A DNA stretch of 22,485 nucleotides from a virus, in the IMG/VR virus record IMGVR_UViG_3300030380_002405, positions 3,288 through 25,772 of that record, one strand, 5' to 3'. The translations under genes and the position numbers were made by a program. Below, in pieces: positions 4,877-20,135 of the stretch (the stretch's first letter is position 1; each line of letters opens with the position of its first letter). Below the pieces are notes generated by a model, which made no database searches, had not been told where the DNA came from, and saw nothing but the letters and a program-made list of their open reading frames with translations.

Positions 4877-5175
4877 TCTTCCTATCAAAACCCGCAGTTT
4901 ATCATTTACCTGGCACATGGGAGAAACAAGATGATGTCCTTATTCAGCACTTAAACCTTACACCTGATCAAGGATTAATTTTATTCTTTGGTTTAGTATT
5001 GGGTGGTCTAGTTGCCTATGGAATCTATCTTACATTTGGAGCAGGTAAGAAGAATTTGAGAGATCAGATTGACGAACATGCTAAAATGCATGAACTAGGC
5101 ATCGCACATGGGCATGGTGGAAATAAAGAAGCGTATGAAATGTCTGGTAAACTAAAACATACCCACGAAGATTAG
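4873..5175 (+). CDS. Single-pass membrane protein with His-rich tail
   Basis: I chose the ATG at 4873, which overlaps the preceding stop, instead of an in-frame TTG at 4858. The 100-residue product has one strong transmembrane segment at about residues 34-56 (GLILFFGLVLGGLVAYGIYL). A charged C-terminal domain follows with clustered histidines (HELGIAHGHGG and KHTHED). The histidines could bind metal, but no known motif is visible. I do not recognise the family. It begins the accessory block that separates gp44 from gp62. Confidence 0.72.
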   Translation: MIFLSKPAVYHLPGTWEKQDDVLIQHLNLTPDQGLILFFGLVLGGLVAYGIYLTFGAGKKNLRDQIDEHAKMHELGIAHGHGGNKEAYEMSGKLKHTHED

Positions 5176-7344: not shown

Positions 7345-7505
7345 AAAAAGCATGGAGGGTATGGAAGTATGCATTGGGTAGCTTCTCTGATGAAAAGACT
7401 AGACGATACGACAATTACGTTGTTCTGGTACGTTCTATTATTTTCTTTTCTTATCTCATTACTAATTGTTTTATTACTGCAGGGGTGATCCGACATTGGA
7501 ACTAA
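7341..7505 (+). CDS. Small membrane protein, 54 aa, overlapping gp62
   Basis: The ATG overlaps the stop of the glycosyltransferase gene. The 54-residue protein has a basic N-terminal part (MKKAWRVWKYALG, then DEKTRRYDNY) and one transmembrane helix at about residues 28-48 (VLVRSIIFFSYLITNCFITAG), ending in VIRHWN. It strongly recalls a small protein found widely in T4-like cyanophages with the pattern RVWxxALG...R..I...T..FI.A..IRHW; its function is unknown. Its last 10 bases overlap the proposed TTG start of gp62. The Shine-Dalgarno-like AGGGGTG that would serve gp62 lies within this gene. Confidence 0.8.
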   Translation: MKKAWRVWKYALGSFSDEKTRRYDNYVVLVRSIIFFSYLITNCFITAGVIRHWN

Positions 7506-7876
7506 AAGATTGGCTTAATTCTATCAACTTCAATAAAGAGAATCTTATTGAGGAAGATCCTTCTACAATTAAGGATTATGCTCCTTACATTGTTAATCGT
7601 TGTTTATCAGGACATCTGGATTGTATAATGTTTGCAAACGAGATGAATAAATACTCTTTCCTTGATAAGGATATGCAATATTCATTTTATCTAAATACAC
7701 TTAGGAAAAAGAAGAGATTCAGTCCCTGGCTCCGTAAGGATAAAGTCACAGACCTTGAAATCATTAAACAATACTATGGTTATAGTAACGAAAAAGCATC
7801 TAATGCTTTGAAAATATTAACCCCTGAACAAATTAATTTTATTAAACAACGACTTGAAACTGGAGGATCGAAATGA
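7496..7876 (+). CDS. gp62: gp62 clamp loader small subunit (TTG start)
   Basis: gp62 is the non-ATPase subunit of the T4-type clamp loader and bridges the gp44 ring. Cyanophage-type features are LKDWLNSIN near the start, APYIVNRCLSGHLDCIMFANEMN, LNTLRKKKRFSPWLRK and LEIIKQYYGYSNEKA (T4 has AVPRGKRYGKWAK and LIIKLLAKRYQV). At 126 residues it is much shorter than the T4 protein (187). There is no in-frame ATG before the conserved region. The best start is TTG at 7496, with AGGGGTG about 8 bp upstream; another TTG at 7466 would add 10 residues without a good site. The start overlaps the preceding membrane-protein gene and the stop overlaps regA (ATGA). Confidence 0.88.
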   Translation: MELKDWLNSINFNKENLIEEDPSTIKDYAPYIVNRCLSGHLDCIMFANEMNKYSFLDKDMQYSFYLNTLRKKKRFSPWLRKDKVTDLEIIKQYYGYSNEKASNALKILTPEQINFIKQRLETGGSK

Positions 7877-8307
7877 CTACCACTGAGCCCACTGTACAAT
7901 GGTCACAAGACCAAATGGTAGAAGTGCTTCTCAATGAACCCGATGATTTCTTAAAGGTAAGAGAAACTCTCACAAGAATTGGTGTAGCATCAAGAAAAGA
8001 AAAGAAATTATATCAGAGTTGTCATATATTACACAAACAAGGTAAGTATTACATAGTTCATTTTAAAGAACTCTTTGCCTTAGATGGTAAACATGCTAAT
8101 CTTACTCCCAATGACGTTCAACGTAGAAATAGGATTACTCGTCTTCTTTCTGATTGGGGACTTATCTCTGTAGTAAAAGATGAATCGGTAACGGACATCG
8201 CTCCACTCAATCAAATTAAAGTCTTGGCTTTTAAAGATAAAGGTGAATGGATACTAGAACAGAAGTATAATATTGGGAAGAAAACTAAACCAACAGAGGA
8301 TACGTAA
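7873..8307 (+). CDS. regA: RegA translational repressor
   Basis: RegA binds early phage mRNAs at their translation start sites and blocks ribosome binding; in T4 its targets include genes 44, 45, 62 and regA itself. The match to T4 RegA is very strong: PDDFLKVRETLTRIGVA, LYQSCHILHKQGKYYIVHFKELFALDG, RRNRITRLLSDWGLI, and EWILEQKYNIG near the end. The first 14 residues form an extension relative to T4; Met15 aligns with T4 Met1. I keep the ATG at 7873 because GGAGG lies 6 bp before it, whereas the ATG at 7915 has none. The 144-residue protein is the last gene before the large regulatory gap. Confidence 0.96.
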   Translation: MTTTEPTVQWSQDQMVEVLLNEPDDFLKVRETLTRIGVASRKEKKLYQSCHILHKQGKYYIVHFKELFALDGKHANLTPNDVQRRNRITRLLSDWGLISVVKDESVTDIAPLNQIKVLAFKDKGEWILEQKYNIGKKTKPTEDT

Positions 8308-8627: not shown

Positions 8628-8633
8628 TATAAT
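8628..8633 (+). promoter_or_regulatory. Probable hsp20 promoter -10 box
   Basis: This is a perfect TATAAT at 8628-8633 downstream of the terminator and 55 bp before the hsp20 ATG. No recognisable -35 exists 16-18 bp upstream (CCCCTC-like sequence from the terminator stem), so an activator or a middle-type factor may be needed. Initiation would fall near 8640, giving a leader of about 48 nt. Confidence 0.5.
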
Positions 8634-8638
8634 TAGTA

Positions 8639-8659
8639 GTGTACGCCGTAAGGGTACAC
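8639..8659 (+). promoter_or_regulatory. 5'-end hairpin with GNRA-type tetraloop in hsp20 leader
   Basis: GTGTAC (8639-8644) pairs with GTACAC (8654-8659). CC (8646-8647) pairs with GG (8652-8653) around the loop GTAA, leaving G8645 bulged. This is an 8-bp stem closed by a C-GUAA-G tetraloop, at or next to the predicted transcript 5' end. It could stabilise the mRNA or act as the upstream arm of the thermosensor described next. Confidence 0.5.
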
Positions 8660-8667
8660 AATTCACA

Positions 8668-8683
8668 CTCGCTTAATAAGGAG
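8668..8683 (+). promoter_or_regulatory. Candidate ROSE-like RNA thermometer over hsp20 ribosome site
   Basis: CTC-G-CTT (8668-8674) can pair with AAG-GAG (8678-8683) across the 3-base loop AAT, leaving G8671 unpaired. This sequesters the strong Shine-Dalgarno AAGGAG, 4 bp before the hsp20 ATG at 8688. The strand opposite the Shine-Dalgarno contains UCGCU. ROSE thermometers upstream of bacterial small heat-shock genes use UYGCU paired to AGGA with the same bulged G. Melting would expose the site at raised temperature. This is inferred from sequence only; the stem is short and could be partly open at normal temperatures. Confidence 0.5.
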
Positions 8684-8687
8684 AACC

Positions 8688-9122
8688 ATGAACACACTAG
8701 CAAGGTATCACGCTGCTAATCTTCCCGATCTATTTGATAGGATAACTAAGAATAGCATAGGAATGGATGATTATCTGAATAGTTTTTTTAATTCAGATAT
8801 TCCACAATCTAATTATCCACCATATAATCTAATACAGTTGAATAATCATGAGTCGAAACTCGAAATCGCACTTGCGGGCTTTAAGAAAGATGAACTCAAA
8901 GTCTATACAGAGTTTGGAAAATTACATGTCGAAGGCAAGAAAGAAGAATCAAAAGTTAATGGAGAATTTGTCCATAAAGGATTGGCCCAACGCTCCTTTG
9001 AACGGATCTGGACGGTCACCGATGATACGAAGGTTGGATCCGTCAAGTTTGAAGATGGATTATTAACAATAGAACTAAATAAGATAGTACCCGAACACCA
9101 CGCTCGTAAAGAGTATCTTTAA
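8688..9122 (+). CDS. hsp20: Hsp20 small heat-shock protein
   Basis: This is an ATP-independent holdase chaperone of the alpha-crystallin family, a core gene of T4-like cyanophages. In the 144-residue protein the alpha-crystallin domain spans about residues 46-130. It contains KLEIALAGFKKDELKVYTEFGKLHVEGKK, then FERIWTVTDDTKVGSVKFEDGLLTIELNKI, where the family pattern LPGF-K-x2-[DE]-x-V and A-x2-x-NG(DG)-L-x-[IV] is recognisable. The C-terminal tail (VPEHHARKEYL) lacks an obvious I-x-I/V oligomerisation motif. A strong AAGGAG lies 4 bp upstream of the ATG within a hairpin, suggesting translational control by temperature. The gene has its own -10 box and follows a terminator. Confidence 0.93.
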   Translation: MNTLARYHAANLPDLFDRITKNSIGMDDYLNSFFNSDIPQSNYPPYNLIQLNNHESKLEIALAGFKKDELKVYTEFGKLHVEGKKEESKVNGEFVHKGLAQRSFERIWTVTDDTKVGSVKFEDGLLTIELNKIVPEHHARKEYL

Positions 9123-9124
9123 TT

Positions 9125-9328
9125 ATGGCACTATCTGAAAAAACCCACGACTATCTGCTCGAAGCAGAAGGATGTCTTAGATCAGCAATTAAGACTGCTG
9201 CTACTTGTGAAAAACCATTAGTTGTAACTCAACTATCTCAATTACTTATGGACATTGAACGTGTCAAAGAATTTGAAAAACTGCAAGACATCGTAGATGA
9301 AGAAATGCAGAAGAAGAGAGAGTCTTGA
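9125..9328 (+). CDS. Small helical protein downstream of hsp20, 67 aa
   Basis: It starts 2 bases after the hsp20 stop, so it is co-transcribed with it. The 67-residue product looks wholly helical, with a first helix through EKTHDYLLEAEGCLRSAIKTA and a second through LSQLLMDIERVKEFEKLQDIVDEEMQKK. It is acidic overall with a basic end. Similar small proteins occur in cyanophages but I know no function. Its last codons and stop form the stem and loop of the terminator that follows. Confidence 0.78.
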   Translation: MALSEKTHDYLLEAEGCLRSAIKTAATCEKPLVVTQLSQLLMDIERVKEFEKLQDIVDEEMQKKRES

Positions 9329-9345
9329 CAGACTCTCTTTTTTTT
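9314..9345 (+). terminator. Rho-independent terminator overlapping a gene end and a promoter
   Basis: AGAGAGTCT (9317-9325) and AGACTCTCT (9330-9338) make a perfect 9-bp stem with a 4-base loop, TGAC (9326-9329). The stem is extended by A-T and G-T pairs at its base, and a run of seven T covers 9339-9345. The stop codon of the small gene lies in the loop. The same bases hold the -35 box of the next promoter. Confidence 0.9.
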
Positions 9346-9353
9346 CTTATAAT
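9325..9353 (+). promoter_or_regulatory. Consensus sigma70-type promoter of the replication operon
   Basis: TTGACA (9325-9330) and TATAAT (9348-9353) are both perfect consensus, at the ideal 17-bp spacing. The -35 lies in the loop and start of the right arm of the terminator hairpin, and the spacer contains its T run. Initiation near 9360 would leave a leader of only about 15 nt before the ATG at 9375, starting at or inside the GAGG ribosome site (9359-9362). This is a strong early promoter for the gp43-uvsX-gp41 operon. Confidence 0.85.
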
Positions 9354-9374: not shown

Positions 9375-9728
9375 ATGACGGTTAAACTGATACTCTTAAA
9401 ATCAGGAGAAGACATCATTGCTGATGTTACAGAAATGATTGTAGGAGAAGGTGAAGAGAAAAAAGTCATTGGATATTTCTTTGATAAGGCATGTGTAGTA
9501 AAACTAAAAGAAGGTCAAGAACCTACAGAGAAGAAGTCTGCTTTTCAGGTTTCGATGTTTCCGTGGATGCCTCTCTCAGCTGATTCACATATTCCTGTTC
9601 CATCCGATTGGGTGGTAACAATGGTGGAACCAAAAGAAAAACTTAAACAAATGTATTTGGAGGATGTAGTAGGAAATGGCCAAAATAGTAAAGGTAGTGA
9701 CTCTGATGAGTCAACAACTGCTGATTAG
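9375..9728 (+). CDS. Sm-like (LSm-type) phage protein, first of a tandem pair
   Basis: This 117-residue protein is the first gene of the replication operon. The beginning, VKLILLKSGEDIIADVTEM, reads as the first two strands of an Sm-like small beta barrel. The core ends with WVVTMVEPKEKLKQMYLEDV, followed by a disordered acidic Ser/Asp/Gly tail of about 20 residues. Related conserved proteins lie next to gp43 in many T4-like cyanophages. If truly Sm-like, it may bind RNA or form a ring, but this is inferred. It overlaps the next gene by 53 nt, and the two proteins appear to be paralogues. Confidence 0.75.
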   Translation: MTVKLILLKSGEDIIADVTEMIVGEGEEKKVIGYFFDKACVVKLKEGQEPTEKKSAFQVSMFPWMPLSADSHIPVPSDWVVTMVEPKEKLKQMYLEDVVGNGQNSKGSDSDESTTAD

Positions 9729-18542: not shown

Positions 18543-20135
18543 ATGTCTGAATTAAATCCATTGAATGATCTTTCCAGAATATACTTGGATAAGGTTGCCT
18601 TAATTAATCGTCAAGAAGAACAGAACGATGTGGAGAGATGGCAAGGTGTTCTTGATGATCAAATGGAAAAATCATCCAAGAAACTAGCAACTTTGGGTGC
18701 TCCTATGGAAGAGCAAAAGTTGGATCCTGTTGGAAAGGAGGATTCTGATGTTAATAATGACGGAAAAGTAGATAGTTCTGACTCCTATCTTAAAAAACGT
18801 CGTGCTGCCATAGGTAAAGCAATGGGCAAAGGTGATAGCATGAAAAAAGAAGAAACAGAAGTTGAGGAGGGTCATATGATGTCAATGAAAGGATATCAAA
18901 AAGGTGGCATGGTAAAAGGATATCAAAAAGGTGGTATGGTAAAGGGATATCAGAAAGGGGGAATGGTGAAAGGATATCAGAAAGGTGGTATGGTAAAGGG
19001 ATATCAGAAAGGTGGTATGGTAAAGAAAGAAGGGTATCAAAGAAATCCAGAGGCAGATACACGAAGTGAGAGGCAAAAGAGGATGGATGATCCTGATACG
19101 GGAATAAATTCTGCTAAGTTTAGAGCTTTCATGGCAGCACAGCAAGGGGGATCAAAGAAAGTAAAAAAAGAAGGACTTTCTAACTGGAGAGAGGATCTTA
19201 GTAATCTAATTGAAGTTGCTCCAATGACTGATGTGGAGATGGAGAAGGAAGTAAAAGAGAAGAAGGTTAATAATAAGGTTACTATCAATCCTAAGATGAG
19301 TGAAGCTGTTGCTCAGATTGGTGGAGAGTTGATCGCTGAGAAAGAAGTTGATGTTCCTGATACTCGTAGAACTGTAGATGCTATCAGAGCATATGACAGA
19401 TCAAAAGATGCAAGTAGAGATGCAACTTATGATACGATGCACGGCAAGAAGAAGAAGGGAGACATTGAGAAGAAGTATGCTAAGAAAGAACGTGGTGAAA
19501 TAGATAAGGATGATCCAAATTGGATGAACAAGAAGTATCATACTGGTATGCATGGTGAGGAATATATGGCAAAACCTAAAAAGAAAAAGAAAGGTCATGA
19601 TTGTGCATCAAAGGTAAAGCATGAAGAGTATGGTATAGGAAATTGTATTCCAAAAATGCATACTCTTGATGAAAACAATATGGTCACCCATTATGATGTT
19701 GAATTTGAAGATTACATTGTTGAAAATTGTCCTGTAGAGGAGTTATTAATTCTTCAAAGTTCAAATCATCATCATTCTGAAATGAAAGAAGGTGTATTAA
19801 GTAAAGAAGTTAAGGCTCTTTCAAAGGCAAATAAAACTATGAAAGATACACCTGTTGTAAAGGCAGATAAGATTGATACACCAAACTATAAAGGTCAGAA
19901 GTTTGGGGTAAAGGAACAAGAAGATTTCATACAAAAGGCAGTTAAGAGACCAGGTGCATTTACTCGTAAGGCAAAGGCAGCAGGTATGGGTGTTCAACAA
20001 TTTGCAAAAAATGTTGACGATAATCCTGATAAGTACAGCACAAGGACTAAGAGACAAGCAAATCTTGCACAAACATTTGCTAAGATGAAGAAGGAAGATG
20101 TTGAAGAACTCTTTTATACACTAATAGCAGAATGA
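18543..20135 (+). CDS. Lysine-rich multi-module protein with EF-hand and GYQKGGMVK repeats
   Basis: This 530-residue protein is very basic in parts and mostly low-complexity, built from short modules. The N-terminus MSELNPLNDLSRIYLDKV recalls other marine T4-like phage proteins. DVNNDGKVDSSD (69-80) is a dockerin/EF-hand type calcium loop with ligands Asp69, Asn71, Asp73, Asp77 and Asp80. Residues 117-161 are five exact copies of GYQKGGMVK. Residues 353-400 (CASKVKHEEYGIGNCIPKM...) look like a small barrel module. KRPGAFTRKAKAAGMGVQQFA (468-488) is a phage motif also seen elsewhere. NLIEVAP (221-227), GELIAE (261-266) and the terminal LIAE fit L/I-x-E protease sites. It is probably a head or core protein, but no single function can be assigned. 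Confidence 0.75.
   Translation: MSELNPLNDLSRIYLDKVALINRQEEQNDVERWQGVLDDQMEKSSKKLATLGAPMEEQKLDPVGKEDSDVNNDGKVDSSDSYLKKRRAAIGKAMGKGDSMKKEETEVEEGHMMSMKGYQKGGMVKGYQKGGMVKGYQKGGMVKGYQKGGMVKGYQKGGMVKKEGYQRNPEADTRSERQKRMDDPDTGINSAKFRAFMAAQQGGSKKVKKEGLSNWREDLSNLIEVAPMTDVEMEKEVKEKKVNNKVTINPKMSEAVAQIGGELIAEKEVDVPDTRRTVDAIRAYDRSKDASRDATYDTMHGKKKKGDIEKKYAKKERGEIDKDDPNWMNKKYHTGMHGEEYMAKPKKKKKGHDCASKVKHEEYGIGNCIPKMHTLDENNMVTHYDVEFEDYIVENCPVEELLILQSSNHHHSEMKEGVLSKEVKALSKANKTMKDTPVVKADKIDTPNYKGQKFGVKEQEDFIQKAVKRPGAFTRKAKAAGMGVQQFAKNVDDNPDKYSTRTKRQANLAQTFAKMKKEDVEELFYTLIAE
18891..19025 (+). repeat. Five tandem 27-bp repeats in the coding sequence
   Basis: Units start at 18891, 18918, 18945, 18972 and 18999, each encoding GYQKGGMVK. 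Units 4 and 5 are identical in DNA. All differences among units are at third codon positions and synonymous, so the peptide repeat is conserved while the DNA has drifted. A degenerate GYQ follows at residues 164-166. Confidence 0.97.

Follow-up and report, generated by a model that had tools for sequence, protein, structure and literature searches.

The leader of about 49 nucleotides at the 5′ end of the hsp20 mRNA in a T4-like virus record is very probably a short, two-hairpin RNA thermometer of the ROSE type, for which melting and heat-induced translation are inferred from the ROSE elements already studied. In ROSE-like thermometers a U(U/C)GCU motif is imperfectly paired with the Shine-Dalgarno (SD) sequence in the last of two to four hairpins, leaving a predicted bulged G (PMC11182007, PMC3669281). 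The ROSE-type thermometer itself is known; its setting before a phage hsp20 gene would be new, and the comparative support for it is unusually deep. An earlier reading of this DNA (the initial annotation) stated that no phage version had been described. This holds for the ROSE type but not for phage thermometers in general, as RNA thermometers are known in lambda cIII, in SPbeta blyA and in the sigma70 leader of a gut phage of the Caudoviricetes (PMC10586365, PMC11182007). The literature searched, mostly outside subscription papers and preprints, yielded no account of a phage thermometer that is of the ROSE type or linked to hsp20.

Genomic context of hsp20

The stretch of DNA analysed here (the window; 22,485 nucleotides) is part of a 67.9-kb virus record with T4-like genes, including those for the clamp loader, regA, hsp20 and a family B DNA polymerase (Table 1). 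The Hsp20 protein matches 506 phage records in a tblastn search, and the gene order gp62-regA-hsp20 recurs in a related T4-like contig (L180). Between regA and hsp20 lies a terminator-like stem-loop, absent from the listing of an automatic scan; similar stem-loops occupy the same place in most close relatives, and it would close the upstream transcription unit. The TATAAT that follows it has no −35 match. Of 65 diverse leaders, 45 have a −10-like or late-promoter-like element 5′ of hairpin I, as compared with 4 of 77 shuffled ones. Transcription of hsp20 would then start near 8639–8641, at the foot of hairpin I, and hsp20 appears to form its own transcription unit, in which the terminator-like stem-loop and TATAAT are followed by the leader. 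Elsewhere in the window, a perfect sigma70 consensus promoter (TTGACA-17-TATAAT, 12/12; 9325–9353), likely an early promoter, lies upstream of an ORF starting at 9375, and the ORF at 18543–20135 has a tandem KGYQKGGMV repeat within its N-terminal third.

Structure of the leader

The initial annotation had proposed that CUC-G-CUU pairs with AAGGAG and thereby masks the SD of hsp20. The coordinates of this pairing are exact, and RNAfold gives the same hairpin, with G8671 predicted to bulge as had been suggested; the bulge is kept while the flanking pairs vary among phage leaders. Two hairpins, as also claimed there, are folded by RNAfold, and both covary.

Table 1. Features in and around the hsp20 leader (positions in the window).
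Feature	Position	Strand	Description	Basis
Clamp-loader A subunit (gp62) and regA	7466–8307	+	syntenic, upstream of hsp20	Pfam PF16790, PF01818
Terminator-like stem-loop	8592–8615	+	GAGGGG-TTTCACA-CCCCTC, then TTTTT	read directly
−10-like element	8628–8633	+	TATAAT	read directly
Hairpin I	8639–8659	+	GUGUAC/GUACAC stem, bulged G8645, inner CC/GG, loop GUAA	RNAfold
Hairpin II	8668–8683	+	CUC/GAG, bulged G8671, CUU/AAG (C8668-U-C8670, G8671, C8672-U-U8674, loop AAU 8675–8677, AAGGAG 8678–8683)	RNAfold; thermosensing by homology
Anti-SD motif	8669–8673	+	UCGCU, the U(U/C)GCU of ROSE-like elements	read directly; definition from PMC11182007, PMC3669281
SD	8678–8683	+	AAGGAG, 4 nt 5′ of the hsp20 ATG	read directly
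hsp20	8688–9122	+	class A small heat shock protein, 144 aa; start codon ATG at 8688	Pfam PF00011, E 5.8e-14

These parts are those by which the ROSE class is recognized: the leader lies in the 5′ UTR of a gene for a small heat shock protein, the UCGCU motif is paired with AGGA in the 3′ proximal hairpin, a bulged G is predicted in the anti-SD strand, and the number of hairpins is two. Length is the exception. A range of 60 to over 100 nt has been given for ROSE-like elements (PMC10474464), and the window leader has only about 49 nt if transcription starts near 8639. Length is treated here as a variable, not a defining, trait of the class, the short Pseudomonas elements (61–62 nt) lying already at its lower edge.

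Conservation among phage hsp20 leaders

Phage hsp20 genes were gathered from contigs and isolates by protein similarity alone, so that the leader sequence played no part in choosing them; one bait protein was a hand-composed, consensus-like sequence used solely for fetching loci. The 267 distinct 45-nt leaders thus obtained were searched mechanically for a hairpin in which a single base bulges from the 5′ strand and the 3′ strand covers the SD. Such a hairpin with a bulged G is present in 261 of them, as compared with 21 of 562 controls, which are SD-bearing genes other than hsp20 from related phage contigs, and hairpins with a bulged A, C or T are found in 10, 2 and 3 of the 267, respectively. 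The bulged-G hairpin over the hsp20 SD is far beyond chance. Hairpin I, with a bulged G of its own, is found in 66 of 77 diverse leaders and in 7 of 77 shuffled ones. The whole element is placed near-exclusively 5′ of hsp20 genes or hsp20 operons.

In three of the six leaders without a match (L223, L224 and L228), hsp20 is the second gene of an operon, and a complete element precedes the first gene, which encodes a 74-aa protein. By eye, the S-CAM4 leader can form GUC-G-CUU/AAG-GAC, beyond the position range of the search, that of SCTP-2 can form CU-G-CCU/AGG-AG, and that of Paride is a variant having one inner pair.

Several further observations were made in the course of this collection. The operon consisting of the element, a gene for a 74/75-aa protein and hsp20 occurs in some phages, namely in L223, L224, L225, L226, L228 and L230, where the element lies near 320–358 and the first gene at 364–588, and L110. 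The first-gene protein looks phasin-like by eye, and the L110 copy has no Pfam match; in these operons a thermometer-like leader would govern a second small protein besides Hsp20. Five contigs labelled Lewinella, Nonlabens, Saprospiraceae, Actinomycetota or Euryarchaeota (L598, L611, L613, L622 and L626) have hsp20 leaders and proteins of the cyanophage type and are probably mis-binned or contaminating phage contigs. In two contigs of Pelagibacterales MAGs (L593 and L609) a very compact element, GTAAGTTGCCTTAGGGGACTTACCTAACTCGCTTAAACAAGGAG in L609, stands before hsp20, and could be either SAR11's own or phage-derived. Finally, on the minus strand of a phage contig that also has a tRNA array and a GOLLD RNA (L083), ACTCGCTTAACAAGGAG precedes a gene for an AhpC-type peroxiredoxin (start codon at reverse-strand position 4898), possibly a ROSE-like hairpin ahead of an oxidative-stress gene.

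Covariation of the pairing

The bulged G is constant while the outer stem of hairpin II covaries. Its outer pairs are CUC/GAG in 182 leaders, CUU/GAG in 31, AUC/GAU in 25 (mostly Pelagibacter-phage-like), GUC/GAC in 8 and UUC/GAA in 5, with single cases of CAC/GUG (S-TIM5), UAC/GUA (S-B68) and UUU/AAA. For a test that aligns the leaders without recourse to pairing, 77 representatives sharing less than 80% identity were taken, with GCY and AGG as the sole anchors of the two strands. The outer cells pair in 221 of 231 cases, a level reached by none of 5000 shuffles, and 34 cells are changed on both sides against a shuffle mean of 14.9. An alignment guided by a model and comprising 73 matches, two of which come from the E. 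coli region, has 98.1% of its cells paired and 177 both-side changes, as compared with 49 in the shuffled set and 13–42 when partners are slid by 1–3 columns. In the same alignment hairpin I has both-side changes at seven of eight pairs and 96.7% of cells paired. Shuffles take no account of relatedness, and a model-guided alignment is biased towards the structure, so that more reliance should be placed on the anchor test and on how many different lineages are represented. A MAFFT alignment of the 77 leaders was left out of the pair counts, since the variable loop length misaligns the SD strand. Compensatory changes, which the initial annotation had suggested looking for in related phages, are thus borne out, the pairing being conserved and covarying in many lineages.

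Relationship to the ROSE families

Is the phage element related to the ROSE families by more than its shape? Scanning the window against Rfam, with the gathering thresholds and with relaxed ones (E ≤ 10), gave no ROSE match, ROSE_3 (RF02523) had no match over the 67.9-kb record, and RF00435 had none in that record and ten phage records. In the related contig L180, ROSE_3 scores 54.3 bits (E 3.4e-13), above its curated cut-off of 43 bits, and the match falls exactly on the hsp20 leader. Matches below the cut-off, from 34.1 to 16.7 bits, fall at the hsp20 leaders of Melnitz, L260, L202, L293, L388, Syn9 and Syn30, the score being 34.1 bits in a Methylophilales phage and lower in Syn9 and Syn30. 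The best two of 4227 Rfam families for the P-SSM2 leader are ROSE_3, whose alignment is full-length and takes in both hairpins (E 0.11, not reaching the cut-off), and ROSE_2, with which it shares an identical core, CUCGCU..AGGAG.

The link also holds in the reverse direction. A model built from 11 phage leaders only (R1) picks out the leader of E. coli ibpB, a studied thermometer, at 22.4 bits and with E 5e-5 for a searched length of 150 kb (ACUCGCUU..AAGGAGAA); this ibpA-ibpB intergenic leader carries ACUCGCUUcUUAgAAGGAGAA. On the record of the window and 15 isolate records, every strong R1 match is at an hsp20 leader, and under the strict filters of that search the hsp20 leader is lost in five divergent isolates. 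A second match in P-TIM40 (E 0.016) is inside uvsX and was taken as chance. In bacteria, a first protein search of genome contigs found no relative and a DNA pattern was used instead: the strict two-hairpin pattern, applied to 84,980 bacterial and archaeal genomes, occurs at 63 places; about 40 of these lie 5′ of Hsp20 genes, which are mainly enterobacterial and ibpB-like. The assignment to a ROSE-like family, linked both ways to the Rfam families by ROSE_3 in relatives and by R1 on ibpB, is well supported by sequence evidence. Cyanophage small heat shock proteins group with those of bacterial class A, probably through lateral transfer, and apart from those of their hosts (PMC3827213), and the phages most likely acquired the element along with a class A gene of proteobacterial origin.

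The position of regA directly upstream of hsp20, in the window and in several relatives, might suggest that RegA, or some other regulator of the phage or host, uses the leader as its operator. This is very improbable: the same element precedes bacterial ibpB, where no RegA exists; Syn9 and P-SSM2 have it before hsp20 although the annotated upstream neighbour is not regA; and what is conserved is a pairing, not one fixed sequence.

A described RNA motif, manA (RF01745), was also considered, as ibpA is among the manA-associated genes and manA has been listed before ibpA chaperones in cyanophages (Weinberg et al., 2010; PMC2864571). In P-SSM2 (AY939844.2), however, manA (142837–143034; E 5.6e-52) is a separate structure of 192 positions that ends about 450 nt before hsp20, and the manA matches of other phages are far from hsp20. 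The window leader has no manA match and is a different and separate element, so that this identity is refuted. The P-SSM2 copy is probably why ibpA was listed as manA-associated in 2010. Another candidate identity, wcaG, gave no match.

Proposed temperature response and mechanism

As a ROSE-type thermometer, the leader would work as follows. At normal growth temperature, hairpin II would hold the AAGGAG ribosome site against CUC-G-CUU. Since the conserved bulged G is proposed to keep this short stem weak, warming or a transient heat shock during infection would open hairpin II, and the ribosome could load on the opened leader so that Hsp20 is made as proteins begin to unfold. Hairpin I would remain folded at the 5′ end and probably aids folding or mRNA stability. 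The two-hairpin ROSE element of Pseudomonas confers heat induction on a reporter, for which hairpin II alone is enough; deletion of the bulged G represses, and hairpin I does not melt (PMC3669281). As the phage element has the same parts, the same mechanism is most likely.

Folding between 15 and 45°C, proposed in the initial annotation as a check for melting of the stem at 8668–8683, recovers the hairpin but does not predict sharp melting. According to the nearest-neighbour model, the SD of the window is unpaired with a probability of only 0.15 at 15°C, rising to 0.26 at 45°C. In the same energy model the E. coli ibpA control likewise keeps its SD mostly paired and shows no melting, so that the model is uninformative rather than contrary. 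For hairpin II alone the model gives −4.4 kcal/mol at 20°C and −1.5 kcal/mol at 42°C; when the bulged G is removed, the corresponding values are −8.6 and −5.2 kcal/mol.

The flat model energies, together with the little change in ocean temperature, would also suit a static attenuator, a hairpin that merely lowers hsp20 translation and is blind to temperature. Such an attenuator requires no invariant bulged G, whereas here the bulge stays and the outer pairs change freely, and homologous short ROSE elements are heat-responsive in experiments (PMC3669281); we consider this reading improbable. The small temperature swings met by ocean phages imply that heat may not be the relevant natural signal.

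Another signal could be the chaperone itself. E. coli IbpA represses its own translation through the 5′ UTR, an activity that depends on R93, on aromaticity at position 34 and on positively charged residues at 97/98 (PMC10474464), and by this precedent the phage leader might be mainly autoregulatory, Hsp20 binding its own leader and repressing translation until relieved by unfolded proteins, with melting secondary or absent. The position of R93 is R in 76 of 77 diverse phage Hsp20s and K in the remaining one, position 97 is R or K in 62 of 77, and the window Hsp20 has R at both positions and Y at that of Y34; IbpB, which does not repress itself, has Q at 93. On the other hand, the class A proteins of alpha- and gamma-proteobacteria share R93, whose presence is therefore not specific, and autoregulation would add to the masking of the SD by the hairpin rather than replace it. 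A mainly autoregulatory leader is thus possible but doubtful, and the near-constant arginine makes feedback control a live additional mechanism beside the thermometer. It is conceivable, slightly less so, that the leader is a dual sensor, a ROSE hairpin opened by heat and also closed by its own Hsp20 product. If so, Hsp20 would be produced whenever unfolded protein sequesters the chaperone in the infected cell, and the phage would gauge, beyond temperature, the folding stress of a cell filling with virion proteins.

Biological significance

With a thermometer in this position, abundant marine phages would possess a heat-shock switch familiar from bacterial textbooks, which compensating mutation has kept over large sequence distances in phages infecting cyanobacteria, Pelagibacter, Methylophilales and other hosts. 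The element suggests that these phages may control the supply of a chaperone at the level of translation, in cells that have small heat shock genes of a different class. The leader offers a direct test of the effect of warming on the protein-folding capacity of phages, and the deep phage alignment is a rich natural covariation data set for the ROSE hairpin.

Comparison with known systems

The thermometers of lambda cIII, SPbeta blyA (fourU) and the Caudoviricetes sigma70 leader (fourU) are, like the hsp20 leader, in phage mRNA leaders, and their translation is reported to be temperature-dependent; they differ in not being of the ROSE type, in serving no chaperone gene and in acting by a fourU or alternative-structure mechanism. 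The manA motif is likewise present in cyanophages, near hsp20 in P-SSM2, but is larger, differently structured and separately located. Rhizobial ROSE1 (RF00435) shares the principle of U(U/C)GCU paired with the SD and the bulged G (PMC3669281), and is longer, with four hairpins. E. coli ibpA (ROSE_2, RF01832) has the same core as the phages, CUCGCU..AGGAG, within an element of more and longer hairpins, and the E. coli ibpB leader has the same ACUCGCUU..AAGGAGAA as the phages but lies inside an operon.

The closest described kind is the short two-hairpin ROSE thermometer of Pseudomonas ibpA, whose layout is that of Rfam ROSE_3 (RF02523), a model for which the phage leaders score below the cut-off in all but one phage record tested. 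The Pseudomonas leader is 61–62 nt long as compared with about 49 nt in the phage; hairpin II of the window has a 3-nt loop, and the phage promoter is −10-like or late-phage-like rather than of the sigma32 type. Both are composed of two hairpins only, the first of them stable and the second holding the SD in U(U/C)GCU pairing with a bulged G, and both precede a gene for a class A small heat shock protein (PMC3669281).
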